Shown piece by piece: positions 28,414-62,266 of a stretch of DNA of 64,000 nt (its first letter is position 1; the number at the start of each line of letters is the position of its first letter). The notes under the pieces are model-generated. The model had not been told where the DNA came from. It ran no database searches and worked only from the letters and a program-made list of their open reading frames with translations. The position numbers were made by a program, and so were the translations under genes. Source of the stretch: Betaproteobacteria bacterium UKL13-2 (lineage in GTDB: Bacteria > Pseudomonadota > Gammaproteobacteria > Burkholderiales > Usitatibacteraceae); NCBI GenBank assembly GCA_001602455.1, contig CP012157.1, positions 181,733 through 245,732 on the forward strand. The letters are read 5' to 3'.

Positions 28414-29493
28414 TTAAGAATAGCATTCGACGGATTCGGGCAGAAGCGTGGGCAACGACGCAGGCAACGACGCAGGCAACGGCGCGGGCAAGGACGCACG
28501 ATTTGTCATATGCTCAGTCGCGACGATTTTAAGTTTGTCCTTTGCTTGGGCTGGCACCCTCGCGCCGAGCCCGATCGCGTTCCTGAGATCCGTGTGCAGA
28601 CGCCTCGCTGGATTGAGTGCTTGGCTAGCGCTAGGCAAATAGAACACTTCAATCTGATTGGCATGCGCAGCCTGCCACGCCTTGACCAGCTTGCAGTGAT
28701 GAACGCGAAGGTTATCGAGAATCAGAAATACCTTGCGCTTGGCATCTTTAATCAGCGCCGCCAGAAACACAATTAGTTGATCCGCATTGATAGACTTATC
28801 AATCATCATCCATCGCGCCTTCCCTTGATTGGTCACCGCCGCAATCATCAACCGCTTCGGGCGGGGTTCTCCGGCGGCATAGGTCCCCGGCGCGTTACCA
28901 ACAAGCGTATTACCAACAAGCATATCGGAGCGACCGCACACATCGATATCAACCCATGCGGTTTCATCGCCCCAATGAATCTCGGCATCCTCCGCTTTGG
29001 CGCGTGCAGCGATCACCGGATATTGCTCCCCTAGCCATGCCCGCACCGCTTCTGACTGCTTGGCATAGCGGCGCTTGATTGGCGTTGGCGAGTTAAAGCC
29101 CCAGCGTACCGAATACATGCCGACGGCGCGAACCGACAAGCTAACGCCGCACTCTTGTTCGATGAGTTTCTTCAACGCAGCGCGACTCCACAGCGCAAAG
29201 TTCATCTGCAACTGCTCGGGCCTTTTTTCGCAGATGATTTGCCGAATTTTCCGCTCTTGATCTTCGGTCAGGCTGCGCCCATTCCCGACACTTTTACCGC
29301 GTGGGCGAGGTCTGATTGCGGCCATCCCACCTCGTTCAAAGGCATCGATGGCGGCGCGAACTGTCGGGTACGATAGTCCACTGCATTCAACAATTTGCAT
29401 CACGCCCAATCCGTTGCAATGCAATCGCACGACTCGCTTGCGACGTTCATGTAATTGTTCTAGCGTGTGAAATCTCGCATCTTCTTTGAACAT
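28414..29493 (-). mobile_element. IS630-family transposase, probably inactive
   Basis: A frame of about 359 residues from the likely ATG at 29493 (MFKEDARFHTLEQLHERRKR); an upstream in-frame start adds 18 residues. An N-terminal helix-turn-helix (VMQIVECSGLSYPTVRAAID) and a DDE domain are present: first Asp in IHWGDETAWVD, second in LILDNLRVHHCK. The third motif, normally PELNPxE, reads SQALNPARRLHTDL, so the catalytic Glu is replaced by Arg. The C-terminus ends in a Leu-Pro-Ala-Ser repeat coded by a 12-bp tandem repeat (about 28446-28496). Terminal inverted repeats were not found by eye. It is probably a relic. Confidence 0.8.
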
Positions 29494-30178
29494 ATGTATT
29501 GGCCCGGAAAAAAACAAAATTAGCGCAACCATGATCGGGATAAACAATAAGCTGCGAGGCTCATTTATCCCACCGCGATACCCCTTTGATTTCCACCCTT
29601 CATCGCCACCGACTTTTTACGTTTCCCTTCATCGCGAGAATGCATTTTTTTGACTGTTCAATTTCCCCCTTAAATGAAGTTACGCGTCCCACCTCATCCA
29701 AGTCGTACTGCCGCACCCGCCCCCCCACTCGCCCCCCCCACTCGGCCCCCACACCCGCCCGTTTTATGCGCTCCAAACGCCTCCGTGTTTGCTGGGCACC
29801 GCCACCCGATTGGGCAAATGCCGCTTCGGTGTTAAAAGGTGACGCCATCGCACAAGAAAAATGGCCGCATGAGACTTAACAACATTTTTATGTGAGTATT
29901 TCTTAAAATTAACATAAGCAATGTTATTGGCTCTTTCCCCAATCTGTCAAGCGGCCTCCCACCGTGACCTGAACTCACCCAAAAATCGACAATGCGCCCA
30001 GTGGGAGCGTAAACAGACTCAGCGTGCCAGCGACGACCGCGTTTTAATCTTGTCCGAGGGGAGTAAGACTGAGCCGGGAATACTGTTGATGTTGCCAGTC
30101 GATTCACTACCTAGTTTGTCAACGAGCAGGGATTCTGCTTAAGGTAGCGTGCGTTCGGGGTGGCGCGAGTATGACCTT
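29494..30178. other. Gene-poor region with poly-C tracts, upstream of the transposase relic
   Basis: Nearly 700 bp without a clearly supported gene. It holds C-runs of seven and eight near 29720-29745, an AT-rich stretch at 29880-29930 and several weak frames on both strands. The composition differs from the flanking genes, and it looks like decayed mobile DNA. Confidence 0.5.
29600..29848 (-). CDS. Hypothetical short protein, doubtful
   Basis: An 82-codon frame, basic at its centre (TRRRLERIKRAG) and acidic later (DLDEVG). The Gly-rich middle is coded across the C-tracts near 29720-29745, so a slip there would break it. No ribosome binding site is seen. A TTGACA near 29945 on the minus strand could be part of a promoter. 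No family recognised. Confidence 0.2.
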   Translation of the reverse strand: MASPFNTEAAFAQSGGGAQQTRRRLERIKRAGVGAEWGGRVGGRVRQYDLDEVGRVTSFKGEIEQSKKCILAMKGNVKSRWR

Positions 30179-30252
30179 GCACCTCTTGCGCGTCTCGTGC
30201 GTCTTGTGCGTCTTGCGCGTCTTGCGCGTCTTGCGCGTCTTGTGCGTCTTGC
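30179..30252. repeat. 9-bp tandem repeat, about seven units
   Basis: Units of GCGTCTTGC or GCGTCTTGT in tandem with small changes. On the minus strand one frame reads as repeated Asp-Ala-Gln, but its surroundings do not look coding. Confidence 0.85.
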
Positions 30253-31337: not shown

Positions 31338-33407
31338 TCATGCGGCGAGCTTCATCCCATTGTGGCGGAGCAGATGTTCGATCTCAGGCTTGCGCCCACG
31401 GAACGCGATAAACGATTCCATCGCAGGTCGGCTGCCGCCGCGTGCCAGCACCTCGCGCCGGAACTTCGCACCCGTCTCTTGATTAAGCACACCACTTTCC
31501 TCAAAAGCAGCGTATGCATCGGCCGATAACACCTCTGCCCATTTGTAGCTGTAGTAGCCGGCGGCATACCCGCCACCAAAAATGTGACTGAAAGCGTGTG
31601 GCATTCGGTTGAAACTTGGATATTGCACAACGGCAACTTGCTCACGGACGCGTCGCACCAGCGCGATGATGTCCTCGTTTGTCGGATCGAAATCGATGTG
31701 CGATTGCATATCAAACAGCGCAAATTCAATCTGCCGCAGAAACTGCATGCCGGCCTGAAAATTCTTGGCGGCAATCATCTTGTCAAACAATGCTCGTGGT
31801 AACGCTTCGCCCGTTTCAACGTGCGCAGTCATGTGGCGCAGCACATCCCATTCCCAGCAAAAATTTTCCATGAATTGTGAAGGTAGCTCGACGGCATCCC
31901 ACTCCACGCCGTTGATGCCCGACACGCCCAGCTCGTCGACTTCCGTGAGCAACTGGTGCAACCCGTGACCAAATTCGTGAAACAGCGTGATGACATCGTC
32001 ATGCGTGAATAGCGCCGCGCGCCCACCGACGGGTGCCGGAAAATTACACGTCATGAACGCCACTGGATGCTGTAACTTTCCGTGTGCGCGACGGCGGTTA
32101 ATCGCATCGTCCATCCATGCGCCACCACGTTTGTTCTCGCGTGCGTACAGATCAAAATAAAACTGCCCGATCAGCGTACCGTCTTTGTCTCGAACGTCGT
32201 AGAACTGCACGTCAGCGTGCCACGTCTCCGCAGAAGCCTTGGCAAATGTCACACCGTAGATGGACTCGACGACGCGAAATAGACCCGCGATCACCTTGCT
32301 CTCGGGGAAATACTGCTTAACGTCGTTATCCGAAAACGCATACCGCTGTTGACGCAGCTTTTCCGAGACATATCCCACATCCCAAGCATTGACCTCCGCC
32401 ATATTGAACTGCTCACGCGCAAACATTTTCAACTCTTGCCAGTCCTGTTCGGCAAATGGCCGTGACTTCGCCGCCATCTCGTTCAAGAAATTGACGACAT
32501 CGTTTGGCGTTTCTGCCATCTTTGCCGCCAGTGAGACCTCCGCGTAGCTGTTATAGCCCAACAGGGCAGCAGACTCTTTGCGTCGCTCGAGAATACGTTT
32601 GATCACCGCGCTGTTGTCCCACTCAATTTTTGCGCCAAGCTCAGATGCTCTTGTGACATAGGCACGGTACATCAACTCCCGCAGCGGCTGATGGTCGGCG
32701 TACTGCATCACCGGCATGTAAGACGGCGCCTGCAATGTGAACTTCCAACCGGCCTGACCATCGGCTTTGGCAGACTCGCGTGCCGCCTCGATTGCATCGG
32801 CGGGCAGTCCCGCCAACTCGGATTGGTCAACGACCACATATGCAAACGCATTCGTTGCATCCAGTACGTTATCGTTGAACTTCGACATGAGTGTCGAGAG
32901 CTCTTCCTGAATGGCTTGGAACTGTGTCTTCTTTTCGGCGCTCAACTCAGCACCACCTAAGCGAAAGTCACGAATCTCGTTGTCGAGAGATCGAATTTGC
33001 GCTGCGGTGAGGGCACCGCCAAAGTCGCCTACTGGCGTGCCGTTCGCGGCAAAAGTGTCTGAAGACGCCCGTATTTGCTTGTATTTTGCAAACAGCGCTT
33101 CGTTTTGCGAAAGCTGCGTCCAGAACTGTGTGATGGTCGGCAACATGCCGTTGTACACGTCGCGCAGCGCGGGAGAATTCACCACGGCGTTTAGGTGCCC
33201 CACCACGCCCCATGCACGCCCCAATCTCTCGGTGACATCGTCGATCGGTGTGACAACGTTCGCCCACGTCGGCGCCTCATTCGCGCCCGTTACCTTAGCC
33301 ACTACTCGCTCAGCGTCGGCGATCAATTCCTCGATGGCCGGTTTCACGATCTCAGGTGTAATCGCGTGAAATTTTGGTAGCCCTGCAAAATCGAGAAGTG
33401 GGTTCAT
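31338..33407 (-). CDS. prlC: Oligopeptidase A (M3 metallopeptidase)
   Basis: A 689-residue protein, standard for PrlC/OpdA, a cytoplasmic zinc oligopeptidase that degrades peptides including cleaved signal peptides. The zinc motif HEFGHGLHQ is at about residues 475-483, with the third-ligand Glu in the following NGVEWDAVELPSQ. Also seen: LPKFHAITPE at the start and FGGGYAAGYYSYKWAE near the end. It is the last gene of the minus-strand run that begins at algH; the methyltransferase gene ends 33 bp upstream. Confidence 0.96.
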   Translation of the reverse strand: MNPLLDFAGLPKFHAITPEIVKPAIEELIADAERVVAKVTGANEAPTWANVVTPIDDVTERLGRAWGVVGHLNAVVNSPALRDVYNGMLPTITQFWTQLSQNEALFAKYKQIRASSDTFAANGTPVGDFGGALTAAQIRSLDNEIRDFRLGGAELSAEKKTQFQAIQEELSTLMSKFNDNVLDATNAFAYVVVDQSELAGLPADAIEAARESAKADGQAGWKFTLQAPSYMPVMQYADHQPLRELMYRAYVTRASELGAKIEWDNSAVIKRILERRKESAALLGYNSYAEVSLAAKMAETPNDVVNFLNEMAAKSRPFAEQDWQELKMFAREQFNMAEVNAWDVGYVSEKLRQQRYAFSDNDVKQYFPESKVIAGLFRVVESIYGVTFAKASAETWHADVQFYDVRDKDGTLIGQFYFDLYARENKRGGAWMDDAINRRRAHGKLQHPVAFMTCNFPAPVGGRAALFTHDDVITLFHEFGHGLHQLLTEVDELGVSGINGVEWDAVELPSQFMENFCWEWDVLRHMTAHVETGEALPRALFDKMIAAKNFQAGMQFLRQIEFALFDMQSHIDFDPTNEDIIALVRRVREQVAVVQYPSFNRMPHAFSHIFGGGYAAGYYSYKWAEVLSADAYAAFEESGVLNQETGAKFRREVLARGGSRPAMESFIAFRGRKPEIEHLLRHNGMKLAA

Positions 33408-33440: not shown

Positions 33441-34466
33441 CTAACCCAATCCGGTTAGATGATGAATGATCGCCCTGCCATGCTTATGAATAAAGGGAGG
33501 CGGGAGCGCATTGCCTATCATCAATGAAATTGCTCCCTTGCCATGAGTGATATCAAAGCAGTACGACTGTGGAAAGCCTTGAAGCATGGCTGCTTCTCGC
33601 AACGAGATTGCACGATTCTCAGTAGGGTGCACGTACCTTCCCTTCGAAGGATTATTACACCCACTCGTTATGGTTGGGGCTACGTCATCCCACCTCATGC
33701 GCCCGTAAACATCTCTAAAACCGTCAGTCTTTCTGTGACATTTGAGTTGTAGATGCTGGGGCAAATCCGAGCGGCTGCCTCCGTCCTTTGGCAATGAACT
33801 TAGAATTCTGAGTACTTTCGGTGAGCGAATTTGCGGCATGTCATGGAGCTGATCACCTGATTCGCCGTGTGCAGGAAGATTCCCAATACAATCACGAACG
33901 CTTACTCTCTTTGGAATTGGCTTTGCAAGCTCGATAGCACCCAAGAGTGAGGCAACATAAATCAGCCGAGTTCTTCGTTGGGCAACGCCGTAGTCTGCAA
34001 CGTTCAGTACGGCGAACTGGTCAACGTAACCAATGGCTGCCAACTGTTTGCGAAATTTCTTAAAAACGCTAGTTTTGGCAAGCTGAGGAACGTTCTCCAG
34101 CATCAAGGTTTTGGGTCGCAGCGAAGTTGCAAACCGAACAAATTCAAAGAGTAAACCGTTCCGTTCATCGCGGTTTGGCCGTGCGCCGTTGTTTGTACGA
34201 AGGCGTGAGAACCCCTGGCATGGCGGGCAGCCAGCAAGAAGGTCAAGCTCACCCGCTCTTAGACCCAGCGTATTCAACAACGTTCGGGGCTCTACTTCCA
34301 CGATATCCTCACAAATCAGGAGTGTCTTTGGATGATTCAGTGCATAGGTCGAAGCAGCTTTGGCATCAATCTCGATCGCTGACAAAACGCAAAATCCTGC
34401 TTCCGTTAACCCTTGCGACAAACCGCCGCAACCTGCAAACAGATCTATCGCTGTGAGTTTTTTCAT
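33441..34466 (-). CDS. DNA cytosine-5 methyltransferase (Dcm family)
   Basis: A protein of 341 residues from the ATG at 34466 (MKKLTAIDLFAGCGGLSQGL); a start five codons earlier exists. C5-methyltransferase motifs in order: I DLFAGCGG (8-15), IV PPCQGFS with catalytic C83, VI ENVPQL (124-129), VIII QRRTRL and X GNALPPP. The target-recognition region between VIII and IX is short. It lies 27 bp downstream of the TOPRIM-ATPase gene on the same strand, and both are wedged between pyrC' and prlC. It probably protects the host DNA from a partner nuclease. No classical restriction endonuclease is next to it. Confidence 0.92.
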   Translation of the reverse strand: MKKLTAIDLFAGCGGLSQGLTEAGFCVLSAIEIDAKAASTYALNHPKTLLICEDIVEVEPRTLLNTLGLRAGELDLLAGCPPCQGFSRLRTNNGARPNRDERNGLLFEFVRFATSLRPKTLMLENVPQLAKTSVFKKFRKQLAAIGYVDQFAVLNVADYGVAQRRTRLIYVASLLGAIELAKPIPKRVSVRDCIGNLPAHGESGDQLHDMPQIRSPKVLRILSSLPKDGGSRSDLPQHLQLKCHRKTDGFRDVYGRMRWDDVAPTITSGCNNPSKGRYVHPTENRAISLREAAMLQGFPQSYCFDITHGKGAISLMIGNALPPPFIHKHGRAIIHHLTGLG

Positions 34467-34493
34467 GATCTTGGACTTCACAAATAAAATTGG

Positions 34494-36338
34494 TCAGTGG
34501 GTTAGATTAGTGATCCGCTTTTTGATTTCGTCAGCAACTTGCGTAAGCTCGGCGGTGATATGAGTGCGCTGCTGTTTCATGTAGTGCTTGATAAGACTAT
34601 GTAGCTCTGCCGAATTCTCAATGTCTTCAGTTGAGCGCCCCAATTTCGCAAGGAGCATGTTCTTGGCCTCCATTGCAGAGATGTCGTAGTTGACAGACTC
34701 TCCCGCGGATGAAAGTAAGCCCTTGAGAAGAACATGTTCGGGGCAGGACATCGGCAAAAATCGAACGTTCTCGAAACACCAGTCCATATAGAGTCTTTGC
34801 AGTTCGGTCTTTTGGGCCAAACTCACTTGCCCGCCGGACCCGCTTGCAACTAGCTGGGGTTCACAGTTTGTAGCCGCAGCTATTTTTGCGCCGATCTGTG
34901 AGTCTAGCGCGGTAGGGATGGTGTTTGATTTGACGAAATCTTCTGATGCGGACGGTTTCTTGTCGCCGTCCAGAAAAACCAAACTTTGCGCATTTGGGGT
35001 CAGCATCCACGTCGGAATGCGGTATTTGTAGATTCCCTCTGCGCCGCCAGGAATGGGAACGATGTCAACCAGCTTCGCTTCTTCTTGGTCAATAAGCGTG
35101 AGCGCTTCGCGAACCAAAATTTGTGCAGCCTTATCTTCCACGAATACGCTCAATCTGCCCAGAGTCGGGGCACCTATGGCAGCAAACGCCATTGTTGGCG
35201 AGATATTTTCGACCACTGCGAACTTTCCATCAGGAGCTTCGGAAAGCACTTTTACCGCTGAAGGCGGTAACCCCCGAATAATTTCCGACGAATGAGTTGA
35301 GACGATTACCTGATGTTTATGCTTCTTAATCTGGTTTAGAAGAAACTCTAGTAACCTCCGTTGCGCTAGTGGATGCAACGACACCTCAGGCTCGTCAAGC
35401 AATATAAGCGTAAACGGCTTCGCTGCAAGTACCTGCACTACCGCACTAACTACTGCAACTTCGCCACTGCCAGCCTGCGCTTCTGAATACTTCGCGTTAG
35501 TACGTTTAAAAATTACGCTCAACCCATCCCCGGGGTCCTGCCCACCATACAGACGATGGCGAACTATCCTTGCCTCAACATATTGCCGCCCCAGGATCAT
35601 GCTCACTGCTGCTAGTTCGACACTCGACAGTAGCCGATTTTCGGCGGTTACTCTTCGGCCATAGTATTTATACGATTGAAGGTCTTGGCCGACAACGTGA
35701 GCAACCTGTTTGGAGTCACGCCGAATCACATCTTGTTTGCTCTTCAGCGATATCAACTTTGGGTCACGCCCGAAGTACATGAATTTGTCGTAAGCGCTTA
35801 GCTCGCTCTTAAAGTTCAGAAACAAAACATCGCGGTCAACCGCATTCCAACGGTCTTTAGTTCGCCCAGCAACAGCCTGTCCCGCGGCTAGCTTTGGCAT
35901 TTTGGGCATTCCGTCGGTCAGCGTTGCCTTGGTCGGCTCCCAGTAGTCGTAGCCACGATCCGTTTTTGTCACTCGTGCTTTTCTCGTATGAACGACCGCG
36001 TTTTGAGACGCAAGCCAGTGACCATATACAAATCGATGTTGCCCGTCCTCGACTCCGCCCTCTTCGATTGCATCAATGCTCGTTGAAAACCAGAACACTT
36101 CAAGTGATTTTCCCTCGGGCATTCCCCAGAAGGCCTGCAAAAGCGACGACTTTCCCATCCCATTGGGACCGGTCAACACCGTAATTGGATACGTCAAGTT
36201 GAGTTGAACTCCGCGAGAAAGATTCTTGTACCTCGGAAATCTCGCGTAGGTGATGAATTTGTCGAGCGGCGCACCAGGCCGGTAGCTCTTCAAACTCTCA
36301 ACAAGTTCGGCGATTCGCTGCTCAGTCTCCGGGCTCAT
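34494..36338 (-). CDS. ABC-type ATPase with OLD-like TOPRIM nuclease region
   Basis: A protein of 614 residues from the ATG at 36338; the frame is open to 36467 but would run into pyrC'. ATPase parts: Walker A TGPNGMGKSS (56-65), signature-like QAGSGEVAVV (288-297), Walker B LILLDEPEVS (311-320) and the H-loop STHSS (347-351). A TOPRIM-like region follows: Glu401 in VFVEDKAAQ and Asp457/Asp459 in LVFLDGDKK. This is the layout of OLD-family nucleases and related defence ATPases such as Gabija GajA or PARIS AriA. It is paired with a cytosine-5 methyltransferase, which suggests a two-gene defence system. The target and exact type are unknown. Confidence 0.85.
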   Translation of the reverse strand: MSPETEQRIAELVESLKSYRPGAPLDKFITYARFPRYKNLSRGVQLNLTYPITVLTGPNGMGKSSLLQAFWGMPEGKSLEVFWFSTSIDAIEEGGVEDGQHRFVYGHWLASQNAVVHTRKARVTKTDRGYDYWEPTKATLTDGMPKMPKLAAGQAVAGRTKDRWNAVDRDVLFLNFKSELSAYDKFMYFGRDPKLISLKSKQDVIRRDSKQVAHVVGQDLQSYKYYGRRVTAENRLLSSVELAAVSMILGRQYVEARIVRHRLYGGQDPGDGLSVIFKRTNAKYSEAQAGSGEVAVVSAVVQVLAAKPFTLILLDEPEVSLHPLAQRRLLEFLLNQIKKHKHQVIVSTHSSEIIRGLPPSAVKVLSEAPDGKFAVVENISPTMAFAAIGAPTLGRLSVFVEDKAAQILVREALTLIDQEEAKLVDIVPIPGGAEGIYKYRIPTWMLTPNAQSLVFLDGDKKPSASEDFVKSNTIPTALDSQIGAKIAAATNCEPQLVASGSGGQVSLAQKTELQRLYMDWCFENVRFLPMSCPEHVLLKGLLSSAGESVNYDISAMEAKNMLLAKLGRSTEDIENSAELHSLIKHYMKQQRTHITAELTQVADEIKKRITNLTH

Positions 36339-36346
36339 ATCGCTCG

Positions 36347-37633
36347 CTACCCAGCGTACACCAAACGTCCCGCACAAATTGTATGCGTGACTTTGCCCTG
36401 CATTTCGCGTGCCAAATAGGGCGTGTTCTTTCCCTGCGACACCAAGGTTTCGCGGGTAACCGCCCAAAATGCGCGCGGATCAAAAATACACACGTCGGCT
36501 GGTGCCCCTGCAACAAAACGCCCTTGCGACTTACCGAGCACCTCTGCGGCATTGACGGTGATTCGCGCGAGCGCGGTTGGCAACGGAACGTTTGCATGCT
36601 CAGCCCACTTTAGCGTCAGCGGCAGCAGCATTTCCAGCCCCGATGCACCGGGGGTCGCCTCGCCGAAAGGTACGTTCTTCTCATCCTCGTCCGTTGGCGT
36701 GTGATCCGAGCAGATGGCATTGATGGTGCCGTCGATAACGCCAGCCGACAAGGCATCCCGATCCGACGGTGAGCGAAGCGGCGGCGAGAAACGATACTGC
36801 GAATCAAAGTAACCAATATCCCGATCAGTGAGCAGCAGGTGGTGGATACCCACGTCGGCCGTCACGGGCAATCCGTCGGCCTTGGCACGGCGGACCAGTT
36901 CGACGCCCGCTGAGGAAGAAAGCCGCGCCAGATGCACCCGTGCCCCGGTTTCACGCATCAGTGTCGCAATGGTGGCGATGGCCACTGACTCTGCACTGGA
37001 CGGGATTCCCGCGAGGCCCAAGCGCGAGGCCACTTCGCCATCGTGCGCGATGCCGCCACGCGCGAGAAACGCATCCTCGGGCCGCAGCCAGATGGTAAAA
37101 CCGTAAGTTGCAGCGTACTGCATCGTGCGATACAACACACTCGTATCAACAATCGGTCGATCCGCTTGAAAGAAGCCGATACAGCCAGCCTCGGCCAGCT
37201 CGAGCATTTCGGCCAAGGTTTCGCCCTTCAGACCCGCCGTCAGCGCACCAAGCGGGTAGATGCGGGCTTGGTTCAGCGTCCAGCCGCGACGTTTCAGCAT
37301 TTCCACCAACCCCGGCTCATCGAGCACCGGCTCGGTGTCGGGTGGACACACCAGCGAAGTGACACCGCCAGCAGAAGCCGCCATGAGTTCCGACTCAAGC
37401 GTTGCCTTGTGTTCATAACCAGGCTCTCTGAGCCGCGCACACAAATCGACCAAACCGGGAGCGACAATCTTGCCCGCCGCATCAATGACTTTATCGGCCA
37501 CAAAACCGTTCGGCGCTTCCTGACCTACCGAACAAACAACGGTGTCCTCGATATACAAATTGACGTGTTCATCACGGCCATTGATACCAACGGAGGGATC
37601 AATCAGGCGTCCATTTCGAATCTCTAGTTTCAT
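36347..37633 (-). CDS. pyrX: Dihydroorotase-like protein PyrC' (probably non-catalytic)
   Basis: A protein of 428 residues of the dihydroorotase fold. Active enzymes have the metal-binding HxH in a DxHxHLREPG motif. Here the matching place reads [11 protein letters not shown], so both His are lost; the later [11 protein letters not shown] is present. This is the pattern of the inactive PyrC' subunit, which in Pseudomonas and relatives binds PyrB to form an active aspartate transcarbamoylase complex. The 4-bp overlap with pyrB fits that partnership. A working dihydroorotase should be encoded elsewhere. Confidence 0.85.
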
Positions 37634-57431: not shown

Positions 57432-60400
57432 TTATTGCAGCGGTATTGGCTTGGTTGATACCGGTGCAGTACCTGCGTTGTTGACGATAGTCGGAATTGC
57501 GCTCGCATTCATCAGCCACAAGGTAAGGGTGCCATCGGGTCGTTTCCACACAATATCGAAAATACCGTCACCGTTGAAGTCACCGCTGGCATAGTAAGTC
57601 CACGTTGGGTCAGTGTTGATATTGACTCCAACGCCCACGTAAGCATAGGCCGACTGCTGTACGGTCAAGGTCGAGCTTGTGCAAGAGGCGTTCTGGTCGT
57701 CTGGGTCGCCGGTATAAGTCGGCAGTGTGATACCCGTTGCATCGAGGCTGATGATGCGCACTTCGCCAGTCGTGGCATTACGAATGAGCACGTCTCCGCG
57801 GCGGCGGCCCGTGAAGTCGGCAAGCTTGAGTGCGGTGAACCCGGTTGGTAGCGAACCGGCTGACAAGTTGGCACACGTACGTGCCTGCGTGGCCATCAGT
57901 GCACGCATTGCGTTTGCGGGACTCACATAAATCATGTCCATCGCGCCATCGAGATTCAAATCCGCCGCGCCGAGCAGCGTCCAAGTGAGTGGTGCGCCGC
58001 CACGTTTTCGTAACTGCGCGAAGCCGGTGCCGTTCGTAAACCAAATGTAGGAAACACCCTGATCGTCGATGTTTGCACTCTGGCCTTGAAAGCGCCAGAC
58101 GAGATCACCGAAACCATCGCCGTCAAGATCGCCAACCGCTTGTACATCCCACGCCGGTTTCACATCGCGCAAAAAGACAGGTGACGTGCCGACAAAATCC
58201 GGCCAGAACTGCGCCACGCCTTGACCATTGGCATTGAGTAGCGCTTGGTTATCGCGCAACATCGGCAGGTCAGATTTGCCGTTACCGGCAAAATCCAGTG
58301 GGGCGATTAAACGATAGTCCGGCCCTGGGTCGGCCATATTGGTCCACTGAAAAACGTTATTAGCCAACCGACCGGCTTGCAATTGATTGTTGCTGGCCGC
58401 ACGCACGACCAGTGTACTTTTCCCTTGGCCGTCGAGGTCGATGCCGCCACGGCGCGAAAGGCTTGCCAGTGTGGGAAGCGTCGAGAACGTGACGCTCACT
58501 GTTTTGCTGCTATCGGCGGTGATTTGGCAGGTGGTCGCGGTGGTTGTTCCGGTGTCGCAGCCGCCCCATACGGATACATAAGAGCCATTTGCGGGTACCG
58601 CAGTCAGCGTGACAAGCTGCGAGCTGAATGTGGCGACGCACGTCGCCCCGCAATTGATGCCAGCCGGGGAGGAGGTCACCGTCCCCGAGCCACTTCCTAA
58701 CTTGGAAATAGTGAGTGTCGATTGGCTCGCAGACACGGGCATTGAAAGGTTGTCGATCCATGCTGTGTCGAGTCCTTCAATCGTGTTGTCATCTTTTTCA
58801 TACGACCATGTCAAGGTATGGGTGCCGGCGGTGATCGGAAAGCTCACGCTTCCCCAAGGCACGTCACCCGACGCGCCCACCAAGCCTGCGCCAGAACAAT
58901 TGCTGCCTAAGTTTTGCGCAACGCCGTCGATTAAGAAGCGCAAGCAGTCATAGGTCGCTTCGCTTGACACGCGCCGATCAAAACGAATGGTGCCGGCAGT
59001 GAAAGTGCCTGTGAAGGCGATTTGTGCTTTTGCGTTATCGCCAATCGGGCTGCTCTTCAAGCTGCAAATTCCTTCAGAGGCGCTATCGGTCGCGACCTGC
59101 CAACCCGCCGCTGCGCCGGTCGGCACCGACCAGCCGGTGGTCGGCAAGACACAGCTCGGCGGAAACACCCCTTGTTCGTTGTCGGTAATCGTCACCGTGG
59201 CAACCGATGTGCCGAGCGTGGTTCCCACCGGATTGCTCAGTGTGACGGTAAACGTCTCCGCGCCTTCAGCGATGGCATCGTCGATAATCGGCACCGCGAT
59301 GACTTTGGTCGCGCCGTCACCCGCAGGCCAGCTCAAGGTTCCCGATGTCGTGGTGTAGTCTGCGCCGGCAGTCGCCGTGCCTGCCGTGGTGGTGTAGCTT
59401 ACCGACGCCGCACCGGTGATACTGCCTTGGCGCCGGACGGTGATATTTGCGGTGCCTGCACCTTCGCCGGCCGTGTAGCTGCTCGCTTGGAATGACACTA
59501 AACCAGTATCAGGTAACGTGGTGGCCTTAAAGAAGCCACGACCGAAAGTGACCGCGACGAGCGTGAGCTTGTCGTACCAAAAAAGTTCGCGTACCCGCAC
59601 ACTGTTCGGGCCGTCGTTGGTTGAGGTCCACGACGCACCGGCGTCCTCCGAGGTGTAGACACCGTTGGCCGCGGCGACATACAGCCAATTACCTTGCGTC
59701 GGGTGCCGCTTGACATCGTGGAGCGTCACTGCGGGTAAGCCATTCGAAATACTGCGCCAAGTGGTTCCGCCGTTTTCCGTCACCCATAGGCGATTGGCTG
59801 AGAAGCCCGAATAGGCGACCCACACGCGGTCAGGGTTATCGGGGTCAACCGTAATCCGGTTAATGGCAGAGGTTGGCATTCCGGTCGCCGCCACATTGGT
59901 CCACGTTGGCGTTGCTGATAGCCCATCGGTGGTCTTGAAAATATGCGTTGGTACGCCGCTGGTGAATGAGGCATTGTGGCCCACCCAAATCACGTTAGAG
60001 TTACCGCGCTGAACCTCGACGGCGTTGATGAAATAGTCGGAATTACCCGTTGTGGTTAGGGGAGGCTTGACGGCACGCCATACCGGAGCCGCAACGGTCC
60101 GTACGTCATCGCTTACCCAAAGTGAATTTGCCCCGACCAACATTCTGTCGCGGCTATTCGGGTCGAGGATAAAAGGCGAGATGAAATTTGTCCTCTCTGT
60201 TGCGGAAGGTCCGCAGTAGGTGATGTTGGATTCGTCTTTTTTGCCTTCTGAAATACCATTGCAAATCATGCCATTCCCCGCGCCACCATAGCGGCGAACC
60301 GAGGCATAAACATATTCGCCGTAGTAGGTTGAATCATCGACCGGGTCCACGGCAGCGTAGCCACCGTCACCGCCACCGACGCGCGACCATGTGGTACCGG

Positions 60401-62066
60401 CATTAAAGCGAAGGTCACCATTGTCTTGCGTGCCGCCGATGATTTTTCCGCCAGCAGCCACAGAGCCTGCGCCACCATAAAACTGGGTGATGCCAAGTTC
60501 GTTATTCAGGTTCTGCCAGGTCGACGTGCCATTCCCTGTCGCCGTGAAAATATTGGTCGAGCGATACAAACCGCCATCATTGCCGATGTACACCATCGGG
60601 TTGGCACCACTAAAGTTTGGCGGTGACACAATTTGATGATTGTCCGCGTGTGGCTGCGGAAGGCCGGGGCCTGCTGTTTGCCAGGTGCTGATCTTTGTCC
60701 ATGTCACGCCCCCGTCGATGGAGCGATGTAAGTCTATGCCGCCGATGACGATGTTTTGGGAGTTCGATGGGTCAATCCAAATACTGTTGTTGTACCAACC
60801 TTGCGAAGAAAGGTGCTTGGGAGAAGACACAAGCGTCCACGTCTGTCCGGCATCTTCTGACTTGTAGATTTCGCCAAAGGCACCTGTCGTTTGATCTGAG
60901 TTATCGACCGAGGCATACACGAGGCTAGGCGTGGCAGGAGCCCATGCAAGCTCGGAGCGAGCGGTGCCGCTGCTACCACGAGGCGTATTTGAGAAGTATT
61001 TCGGCGCATCGGTCCATGTGGCACCCGCATCGGTGGAGTAGTACGCGAAGCCGCCGTTACCCGAAGCGATAATGCGCTCTGCGTTGTTCGGGTCGAAGCT
61101 AATGTCGCGAGTATTACCAGTTTTCACCCGCACCCAGGTGTTGCCAGCATTAGTTGACCGATAGATACCGCCAAAATTAGCGGCCAGAACAAGGTTCGAG
61201 TTAGTTGGGTGAATGGCGATTCTGTTGGTGTAAATCCAATCATTACCGCTGGAATTGACTTGGGTATCGGTTGATGTCGACTGAAGCAAGTTCCAAGTCA
61301 GGCCGCTGTCGGTGCTCTTGAAGATACCCATGCCGATGTAGCCAGTCCCCCATTCACCAGTACCCGCGTACATCACATCTGGGTTCTGTGGACTCACTGC
61401 CATCGAACCGATTGCGAGGTTGCCGCTGAAATCGGCAACGGGGGTGATGGTTTGCCCTGCGTTAGTCGTCAGCCAGATGCCCCCGGTCGCACCGCCGATG
61501 AAAAAGCGATTGCTGTTTCTTGGGTCGAAGACAATGGCGCGAATGCGTCCGCCGACGTTTCCTGGGCCGAGAAAAGTCCAATCGCTTTGACGAATGCCGG
61601 CGGCCTTGGTTATTCCATTGCGGCCATTTGCGGCAAGCTGTTTACGCTTTGTTTCCGCTTGCAGTCTTTGGGTGCTGTTCGGCGCGTTGCCATTGTCGTC
61701 TGCATCCCAACCACGGATATATTTTTCGGATGGAGCGCGGAGGGCCTTGCGATTCGGATTCTTCAGCGAATTTCGATGCGCCAACATGATCCTGTTGCGT
61801 TCATCCCATGACATTGCACACACGCCGGCGTTGTCGGTATTGCCGAACTTCTTAATGGCAGCCAACATGACCAACTCCATATCGAGTGCCTTAGCGAGTG
61901 TTTTGTCGTCCGCCGACTTAAGCTGGCCGCACTCAATTGGTGCCATCGCACTTGCACTCGGCGCGTTGGATGTTGGCGGAGTCTGGTAGGCGCAGCCGCC
62001 TAGCCACATGAGGGCGGCAACAAGTCCGTATTGGCGTGCGCGCACGATCGAGACCGGAAATGACAT
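57432..62066 (-). CDS. Giant exported beta-propeller protein with Calx-beta and FG-GAP/VCBS repeats
   Basis: A protein of 1544 residues from the ATG at 62066, where a lipoprotein signal starts (VAALMWLGGC, Cys25); an earlier in-frame ATG has no signal. Order: low-complexity N-terminus; sialidase/BNR-like propeller blades, about 150-850, with repeats such as STDSGLTWNLL and TTNAGQTITPV; a Calx-beta domain, about 853-965 (AGTATAGADYTTTSGTL, ETFTVTLSNP); a carbohydrate-binding-like stretch; a repeat domain GSGTVTSSPAGINCGATC; and a C-terminal FG-GAP/VCBS part (GDLDGDGFGDLVWRF). Probably a surface-anchored protein. The end is paralogous to the next gene's end. Confidence 0.85.
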   Translation of the reverse strand: MSFPVSIVRARQYGLVAALMWLGGCAYQTPPTSNAPSASAMAPIECGQLKSADDKTLAKALDMELVMLAAIKKFGNTDNAGVCAMSWDERNRIMLAHRNSLKNPNRKALRAPSEKYIRGWDADDNGNAPNSTQRLQAETKRKQLAANGRNGITKAAGIRQSDWTFLGPGNVGGRIRAIVFDPRNSNRFFIGGATGGIWLTTNAGQTITPVADFSGNLAIGSMAVSPQNPDVMYAGTGEWGTGYIGMGIFKSTDSGLTWNLLQSTSTDTQVNSSGNDWIYTNRIAIHPTNSNLVLAANFGGIYRSTNAGNTWVRVKTGNTRDISFDPNNAERIIASGNGGFAYYSTDAGATWTDAPKYFSNTPRGSSGTARSELAWAPATPSLVYASVDNSDQTTGAFGEIYKSEDAGQTWTLVSSPKHLSSQGWYNNSIWIDPSNSQNIVIGGIDLHRSIDGGVTWTKISTWQTAGPGLPQPHADNHQIVSPPNFSGANPMVYIGNDGGLYRSTNIFTATGNGTSTWQNLNNELGITQFYGGAGSVAAGGKIIGGTQDNGDLRFNAGTTWSRVGGGDGGYAAVDPVDDSTYYGEYVYASVRRYGGAGNGMICNGISEGKKDESNITYCGPSATERTNFISPFILDPNSRDRMLVGANSLWVSDDVRTVAAPVWRAVKPPLTTTGNSDYFINAVEVQRGNSNVIWVGHNASFTSGVPTHIFKTTDGLSATPTWTNVAATGMPTSAINRITVDPDNPDRVWVAYSGFSANRLWVTENGGTTWRSISNGLPAVTLHDVKRHPTQGNWLYVAAANGVYTSEDAGASWTSTNDGPNSVRVRELFWYDKLTLVAVTFGRGFFKATTLPDTGLVSFQASSYTAGEGAGTANITVRRQGSITGAASVSYTTTAGTATAGADYTTTSGTLSWPAGDGATKVIAVPIIDDAIAEGAETFTVTLSNPVGTTLGTSVATVTITDNEQGVFPPSCVLPTTGWSVPTGAAAGWQVATDSASEGICSLKSSPIGDNAKAQIAFTGTFTAGTIRFDRRVSSEATYDCLRFLIDGVAQNLGSNCSGAGLVGASGDVPWGSVSFPITAGTHTLTWSYEKDDNTIEGLDTAWIDNLSMPVSASQSTLTISKLGSGSGTVTSSPAGINCGATCVATFSSQLVTLTAVPANGSYVSVWGGCDTGTTTATTCQITADSSKTVSVTFSTLPTLASLSRRGGIDLDGQGKSTLVVRAASNNQLQAGRLANNVFQWTNMADPGPDYRLIAPLDFAGNGKSDLPMLRDNQALLNANGQGVAQFWPDFVGTSPVFLRDVKPAWDVQAVGDLDGDGFGDLVWRFQGQSANIDDQGVSYIWFTNGTGFAQLRKRGGAPLTWTLLGAADLNLDGAMDMIYVSPANAMRALMATQARTCANLSAGSLPTGFTALKLADFTGRRRGDVLIRNATTGEVRIISLDATGITLPTYTGDPDDQNASCTSSTLTVQQSAYAYVGVGVNINTDPTWTYYASGDFNGDGIFDIVWKRPDGTLTLWLMNASAIPTIVNNAGTAPVSTKPIPLQ

Positions 62067-62266
62067 GGGAAACCCTACTGGTGTAAATGACGAGAGGATT
62101 CTAGCGTTCCTTTTGCGCGTGTGAGTGATTTTTTTGTCAAAAATTCGCGTCTGTTTGCACCCATGAGGCTGCAAATCCCACCAAATGGACGCGCCAAGTT
62201 GTTACGGCACACCAAAGCATCGCAGGCCGCGTTTTGCCAAACGCGTTTGGGACGAAGGCGCGGATC

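Follow-up and report, generated by a model that had tools for sequence, protein, structure and literature searches.

In the 64,000-nucleotide stretch of the Betaproteobacteria bacterium UKL13-2 genome analyzed here (contig CP012157.1, positions 181,733 to 245,732; hereafter the window), a gene for an OLD-like ABC-ATPase with a TOPRIM domain (P0001) is followed by a gene for a C5-cytosine DNA methyltransferase (P0002). ATPase and methyltransferase form a conserved pair, which was found in 84 of the 87 loci collected for the ATPase family. Judged from the sequences, this pair probably forms a little-known anti-phage system sparing marked DNA, and an even chance is given here to the reading that it is a restriction-modification-like defence unit in which the OLD-family protein is the nuclease arm. 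An earlier note on this DNA had described two complete open reading frames between pyrC' and prlC and had proposed a coupling of their products. Both frames are open and intact, and the coupling was borne out by the co-occurrence across genomes.

The ATPase family was collected with an alignment of three sequences as query, the window protein and two relatives. P0001 alone gave no match in genome contigs and viral contigs, and its matches among 33 plasmid records and one phage record were partial, with less than 60% identity and none covering 80% of the query. The three-sequence profile resulted in 78 loci from species genomes; of another 15 from viral contigs, seven were counted to the family. 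The other eight viral loci (L109–L116) were excluded due to profile scores of 40 to 117 bits, compared to at least 175 bits for the kept loci; among them, L113 has a weak methyltransferase-like match (679 aa) and the other seven have none. Seven further loci (L017–L023) were set apart as HEC-04-like, and L062, a Zetaproteobacteria record, was dropped as identical to L016. Adding the window and its two relatives gives a set of 87 loci, which fall into 66 clusters at 70% identity. The search did not select for methyltransferases, since only ATPase peptides were used as query; all three seed sequences adjoin a methyltransferase.

In the 84 paired loci, the C5-methyltransferase is located at most 6.5 kb from the ATPase. 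In two of the remaining loci (L073, L074) it lies about 8 kb away, judged by contig numbers and coordinates, and the only other locus without a visible methyltransferase (L077) sits at a contig edge. The two genes are less than 150 bp apart in 51 loci, with the methyltransferase upstream in 25, downstream in 22, convergent in three and across an N gap in L088, and the gaps of these adjacent pairs range from −73 to 98 bp. In the other 33 paired loci the methyltransferase is further off, in many cases with partner genes in between; many family loci show just the two genes. An apparent ATPase-methyltransferase fusion in L088 (a 1879-aa chain) was rejected, as the N run in the record accounts for 1061 residues, which read as X. 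Of the control loci, one of the 11 with other AAA proteins and none of the seven HEC-04-like ones (16-kb stretch) had a C5-methyltransferase. Furthermore, the pairwise distances of ATPases and methyltransferases are correlated (r 0.62 for 75 pairs, reached in 0 of 2000 permutations), to which shared descent may add; restricted to adjacent pairs, r is 0.61 (48 pairs). Twelve of the 87 loci were left out of this distance test.

The family is spread over about 15 phylum-level groups according to the tree labels, which include Pseudomonadota, Bdellovibrionota, Actinomycetota, Bacteroidota, Bacillota, Cyanobacteriota, Verrucomicrobiota, Planctomycetota, Gemmatimonadota, Spirochaetota, Fibrobacterota, Lentisphaerota, Campylobacterota, Thermodesulfobacteriota and Melainabacteria as well as one Patescibacteria record. 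It is rare in the phylum of the window, the Pseudomonadota, where 3 of 398 genomes, the own genome included, have a match at E ≤ 1e-80. A quickly built tree, in which some outgroup branches are long, separates 79 full-length members at support 99 from nine HEC-04-like rows, which were picked by similarity to the family and carry a label given here rather than by a PADLOC scan. In L031, L079, L100, L101 and L108 the ATPase frame is in two pieces and the methyltransferase is open; either the nuclease arm is decaying or the sequences contain errors. In the viral contigs L104, L105 and L106 the methyltransferase is encoded on the strand opposite to the ATPase and three more neighbour families are common (c9, c16, c17), so that they are perhaps one phage group carrying the pair.

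On sequence and model, the ATPase belongs to the OLD family, with the ABC head motifs as well as the TOPRIM E, G and DxD residues in place. It matches the Pfam family AAA_21 (3e-21), and the conservation of its motifs (Table 1) was determined in an alignment of 79 full-length proteins, 8 of the 87 family proteins being left out for length. E401 and D457/D459, named before as the acidic residues of the TOPRIM site, were placed correctly and proved to be invariant; the same holds for G432 (79/79). For residues 392–614 an AlphaFold model was obtained with a predicted local distance difference test (pLDDT) score of 91.9, and the best PDB match of this C-terminal model is the C-terminal region of the Burkholderia pseudomallei OLD protein (BpOLD). 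A Foldseek match to TsOLD has an E-value of 2.4e-14, with a template modelling (TM) score of only 0.35–0.40 over the two-domain chain. By likeness to E508 and K562 of BpOLD (PMC6755086), E534 is a candidate second-metal ligand and K559 a candidate catalytic lysine. K559 is invariant in the 79-sequence alignment, and a separate C-terminal alignment puts the near-invariant lysine column one residue off in the window sequence. E404 of BpOLD has no counterpart in the window family. With PADLOC, the best match of the window ATPase is HEC-04 (1.4e-32, residues 234–467), which is also best in 10 of 10 family members scanned, covering about 225 to 305 residues. No NCBIfam model reached its cut-off for the ATPase among the 25 matches listed.

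P0002 is assigned from its sequence to the C5-cytosine DNA methyltransferases. It matches DNA_methylase (PF00145, 1.8e-57) and carries FAGCGG, PCQGFS, ENV, QRR and GNALPP at positions 15, 87, 129, 168 and 323, which we take to be motifs I, IV, VI, VIII and X of C5-methyltransferases; C88 in PCQGFS is presumably the catalytic cysteine. Counted from a later in-frame ATG at 34466, the spacing to the ATPase is 27 bp and the cysteine is C83, as noted before; counted from the GTG, the spacing is 12 bp. The gene is the sole PF00145 match in the 3.39-Mb genome, in which no Vsr gene was found. The pairing is one-sided: the ATPase lies near related methyltransferases in 2 of 30 fetched same-phylum loci (about 1.5 kb on each side) and in none of 14 related-methyltransferase loci examined with wider flanks. 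The locus L161 (G343, about 1000–2580) holds a methyltransferase that is 54% identical to that of the window and no ATPase in its stretch; it is followed by a Vsr-like open reading frame, with a protease-like one nearby (both named by eye).

Table 1. Coordinates of the ATPase-methyltransferase pair, its motifs and its flanking genes in the window.
Feature	Position	Strand	Remark
OLD-like ABC-ATPase/TOPRIM gene (P0001)	36338..34494	-	ATG start, 614 aa, frame intact
Walker A GPNGMGKSS, residues 57-65	36144..36170	-	G57 and K63 in 79/79
ABC signature GSGE, residues 290-293	35460..35471	-	G290 and G292 in 79/79, S291 in 77/79
Walker B LILLDEPE, residues 311-318	35385..35408	-	D315 and E316 invariant in the 79-sequence alignment
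TOPRIM and C-terminal helical region, residues 392-614 and stop	34494..35165	-	AlphaFold model, PDB match
TOPRIM glutamate E401	35136..35138	-	79/79
TOPRIM DGD, D457-D459	34962..34970	-	D457 and D459 in 79/79
E534 in helical region, candidate second-metal ligand	34737..34739	-	79/79
K559, candidate catalytic lysine	34662..34664	-	79/79
C5-cytosine DNA methyltransferase gene (P0002)	34481..33441	-	GTG start, 346 aa, frame intact; in-frame ATG at 34466
Motif PCQGFS with C88 (C83 from ATG)	34206..34223	-	sequence motif
pyrC' (amidohydrolase family), upstream flank of insertion	36347..37633	-	Pfam typing; gene name from earlier note
prlC (M3 peptidase), downstream flank of insertion	31338..33407	-	Pfam typing; gene name from earlier note

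The composition of the loci was searched for additional partners, the counts being limited by short stretches, as at least 5 kb on both sides were present in only 51 of the 87 loci. By clustering, restriction-enzyme-like genes were detected in at least nine loci, some of them with HpaII-, SmaI- or BsaWI-like enzymes. The earlier statement that no classical restriction enzyme is present is thus correct for those window neighbours that were typed and fails elsewhere in the family, where such enzymes join the pair. A Vsr gene is located near the pair in 17 loci, GHKL clusters labelled MORC-like and HEF_HK occur in 8 and 15 loci, respectively, and Response_reg_2 genes and small HTH_3 genes were found at some loci. 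Along the tree these partners are exchanged and the methyltransferase is constant. In L039, L080, L087 and L090, HTH_3 genes of about 80 aa are located upstream of the pair, a size like that of restriction-modification controller proteins. Among the family neighbours that were typed, UvrD-like genes reminiscent of the helicase partner of Gabija were observed directly upstream of the ATPase in L026, L028 and L030, which are near the window protein in the tree; the L028 gene has a PD-(D/E)XK domain and the L030 gene clusters with it. In the window itself the neighbours of the ATPase are pyrC' and the methyltransferase, in agreement with the earlier observation that no UvrD-like partner is adjacent.

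OLD proteins have been sorted into four classes (PMC10568477, PMC12796447), and from its sequence the pair fits the defining context of none of them. Classes 1 and 2 (TsOLD, BpOLD, GajA) share with the window protein an N-terminal ABC head, a C-terminal TOPRIM and helical region and the conserved E and DxD; class 1 is described as standing alone and class 2 with a UvrD-like helicase, whereas the constant partner here is a C5-methyltransferase. An adjacent UvrD-like GajB, as in Gabija, was not found in the window. Regarding class 3 (retrons), no reverse transcriptase is present among the typed adjacent window genes, multicopy single-stranded DNA (msDNA) not being searched for. PARIS (AriA/AriB, class 4) likewise combines an ABC ATPase with TOPRIM, and we know of no methyltransferase partner as part of it. 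Its ATPase and TOPRIM are described on separate genes, sometimes fused (AriAB), whereas the window protein is a single chain that the PADLOC AriAB model matches over residues 311–356 only; PARIS responds to anti-restriction proteins (PMC12707154). Another close described system is HEC-04/IbfA, which also has ABC ATPase and TOPRIM in one chain and for which defence activity by abortive infection was reported (PMC12111858). The HEC-04-like relatives differ in length (483–516 aa compared to about 600 aa) and lack a C5-methyltransferase in all seven loci; the window family lies outside their clade and, unlike HEC-04, is not stand-alone. The pair is neither Gabija nor PARIS, and the earlier comparison with GajA and AriA had to be revised in favour of a separate clade with HEC-04 as best PADLOC match.

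Type II restriction-modification systems also have a C5-methyltransferase beside a putative nuclease, which here is an ATP-binding TOPRIM protein and not a classical restriction enzyme; no cognate classical restriction endonuclease was found among the typed window neighbours, the rest of the genome not being searched. Part of the family loci share C5-methyltransferase, GHKL, Response_reg_2 and Vsr genes with the HEF_HK/Response_reg_2 and MORC operons. The ATPase family is wider than those operons, and AAA and TOPRIM are unmentioned in the main text of the 2021 HEF_HK paper (PMC8011034). A literature search, which did not cover a 2020 survey of ABC-ATPases as one likely prior source, found no paper on the pairing, which is no proof of novelty; a later paper credits this survey with OLD-linked restriction-modification-like systems.

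In the mechanism proposed, the methyltransferase, strongly predicted from its motifs, would place 5-methylcytosine (5mC) at a fixed motif in host DNA. Its partner, by sequence and model an OLD-family protein with intact ABC ATPase head and TOPRIM motif set, would engage DNA through this head, and we infer that its ATP-gated TOPRIM site would nick or degrade unmarked DNA, e.g., entering phage DNA, and spare marked host DNA. Where a HpaII-, SmaI- or BsaWI-like enzyme is also encoded, the OLD protein would add a second nuclease arm. The constant presence of a methyltransferase next to a nuclease-like protein suggests, as in restriction-modification, a mark that protects self. A more specific proposal is a fifth, methylation-coupled OLD class, with an ATP-gated TOPRIM nuclease as the restriction arm of a C5-methyltransferase, and self read via 5mC, to which classical restriction enzymes and GHKL ATPases may be added; it is made tentatively, as possible rather than probable. 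The OLD protein PA1939 of P. aeruginosa was found to be independent of the methyltransferase PA2735 (PMC6945700), an argument against a general need of OLD proteins for a methyltransferase.

The main rival is a guard or abortive-infection effector, in which the OLD protein, instead of reading the unmarked motif itself, would watch the methylation (or methylation-restriction) machinery and fire when a phage attacks and inhibits it, possibly on host DNA or RNA. This is rather unlikely and still deserves serious weight, as a guardian role over restriction systems is ascribed to PARIS and PrrC (PMC12707154), IbfA/HEC-04 is reported to act by abortive infection without a methyltransferase (PMC12111858) and a restriction-enzyme-like gene is already present in at least nine loci of the family. 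The Vsr, MORC-like and HEF_HK genes nearby would fit an accessory ATPase of 5mC restriction-modification, one that acts with Vsr and MutL-like (MORC-like) ATPases on cleaved or mismatched DNA by looping, degrading or repairing it, and MORC operons have been proposed to loop DNA in restriction systems (PMC2292703); with the two genes alone at many loci and the partners swapped on the tree around a methyltransferase that stays, this role appears improbable.

The modification-dependent logic suggested in the earlier note can be read as a type IV-like nuclease attacking the DNA that the methyltransferase marks. This reading, or one with both proteins acting in gene regulation, could draw on the Response_reg_2 and HTH_3 genes. 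It is considered very unlikely, because a 5mC-attacking nuclease would hit its own host beside an active methyltransferase, and a constant methyltransferase beside a nuclease-like protein fits a self-protecting mark. Least probable of all is that two independent defence genes share a defence island by chance. Such islands often contain methyltransferases as well as AAA ATPases, but 84 of 87 loci are paired compared to one of 11 controls, the adjacent genes are closely spaced and the pairing family extends across about 15 phylum-level groups. The recurrence of the pairing, together with the window methyltransferase being the only PF00145 match in its genome, makes the pair more than chance. Neither of the two sequence-level observations that had been named as speaking against the coupling, missing co-occurrence and non-conserved TOPRIM residues, was made, given the pairing in 84 of 87 loci and acidic residues conserved in 79 of 79 proteins.

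In the window, the pyrC' end is followed by the ATPase start codon after 8 bp and the methyltransferase stop codon by prlC after 33 bp, so that the pair may plausibly be transcribed together with the pyr genes. Compared to close relatives, it is, on sequence evidence, acquired DNA inserted between pyrC and prlC, because in these relatives prlC directly follows pyrC and because the pair is unusually GC-poor. Its GC content of 0.501 is as low in only 1 of 306 sliding windows of the same length across the 64 kb (mean 0.546, standard deviation 0.014). Among 29 fetched pyrC loci of relatives, prlC follows pyrC in 20, within about 120 bp in 18 of these, and is absent from the fetched stretch in nine; ATPase and methyltransferase were found in none. 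In the two nearest relatives (pyrC identity 95% and 91%), the gap is about 60 bp. A search of 12 same-genus and 15 same-family genomes, several of which are incomplete, likewise did not yield the family ATPase but only weak AAA matches. The pair would thus have been gained horizontally and sit as a cassette between pyrC' and prlC. By eye, no target duplication was seen at the empty site, where the intergenic DNA differs.

Other features of the window include a DDE_3 transposase gene (28414–29547, minus strand), which we take to be IS630-like, about 4 kb from the pair past prlC and an exonuclease-like gene. Adjoining the latter, 8.6 copies of the 9-bp unit CTTGCGCGT are arrayed at 30176–30252. 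A 1580-aa protein (57432–62174, minus strand) has Sortilin-Vps10, Calx-beta and FG-GAP matches.

A 2025 tree of OLD proteins contains 11 uncharacterised clades (PMC12796447), and how such nucleases leave the DNA of their host alone has been posed as an open question for Gabija (PMC12407980). With its C5-methyltransferase partner, this OLD lineage suggests an answer that can be tested directly, namely that the mark protects self. Since no PADLOC model covers the ATPase well, annotation would likely list the two genes apart, as an orphan methylase and as an 'AAA family ATPase'. The pair is widespread, and its smallest form consists of two genes. If true, the reading as a fifth OLD class would describe a type of restriction-modification with a TOPRIM protein as endonuclease.
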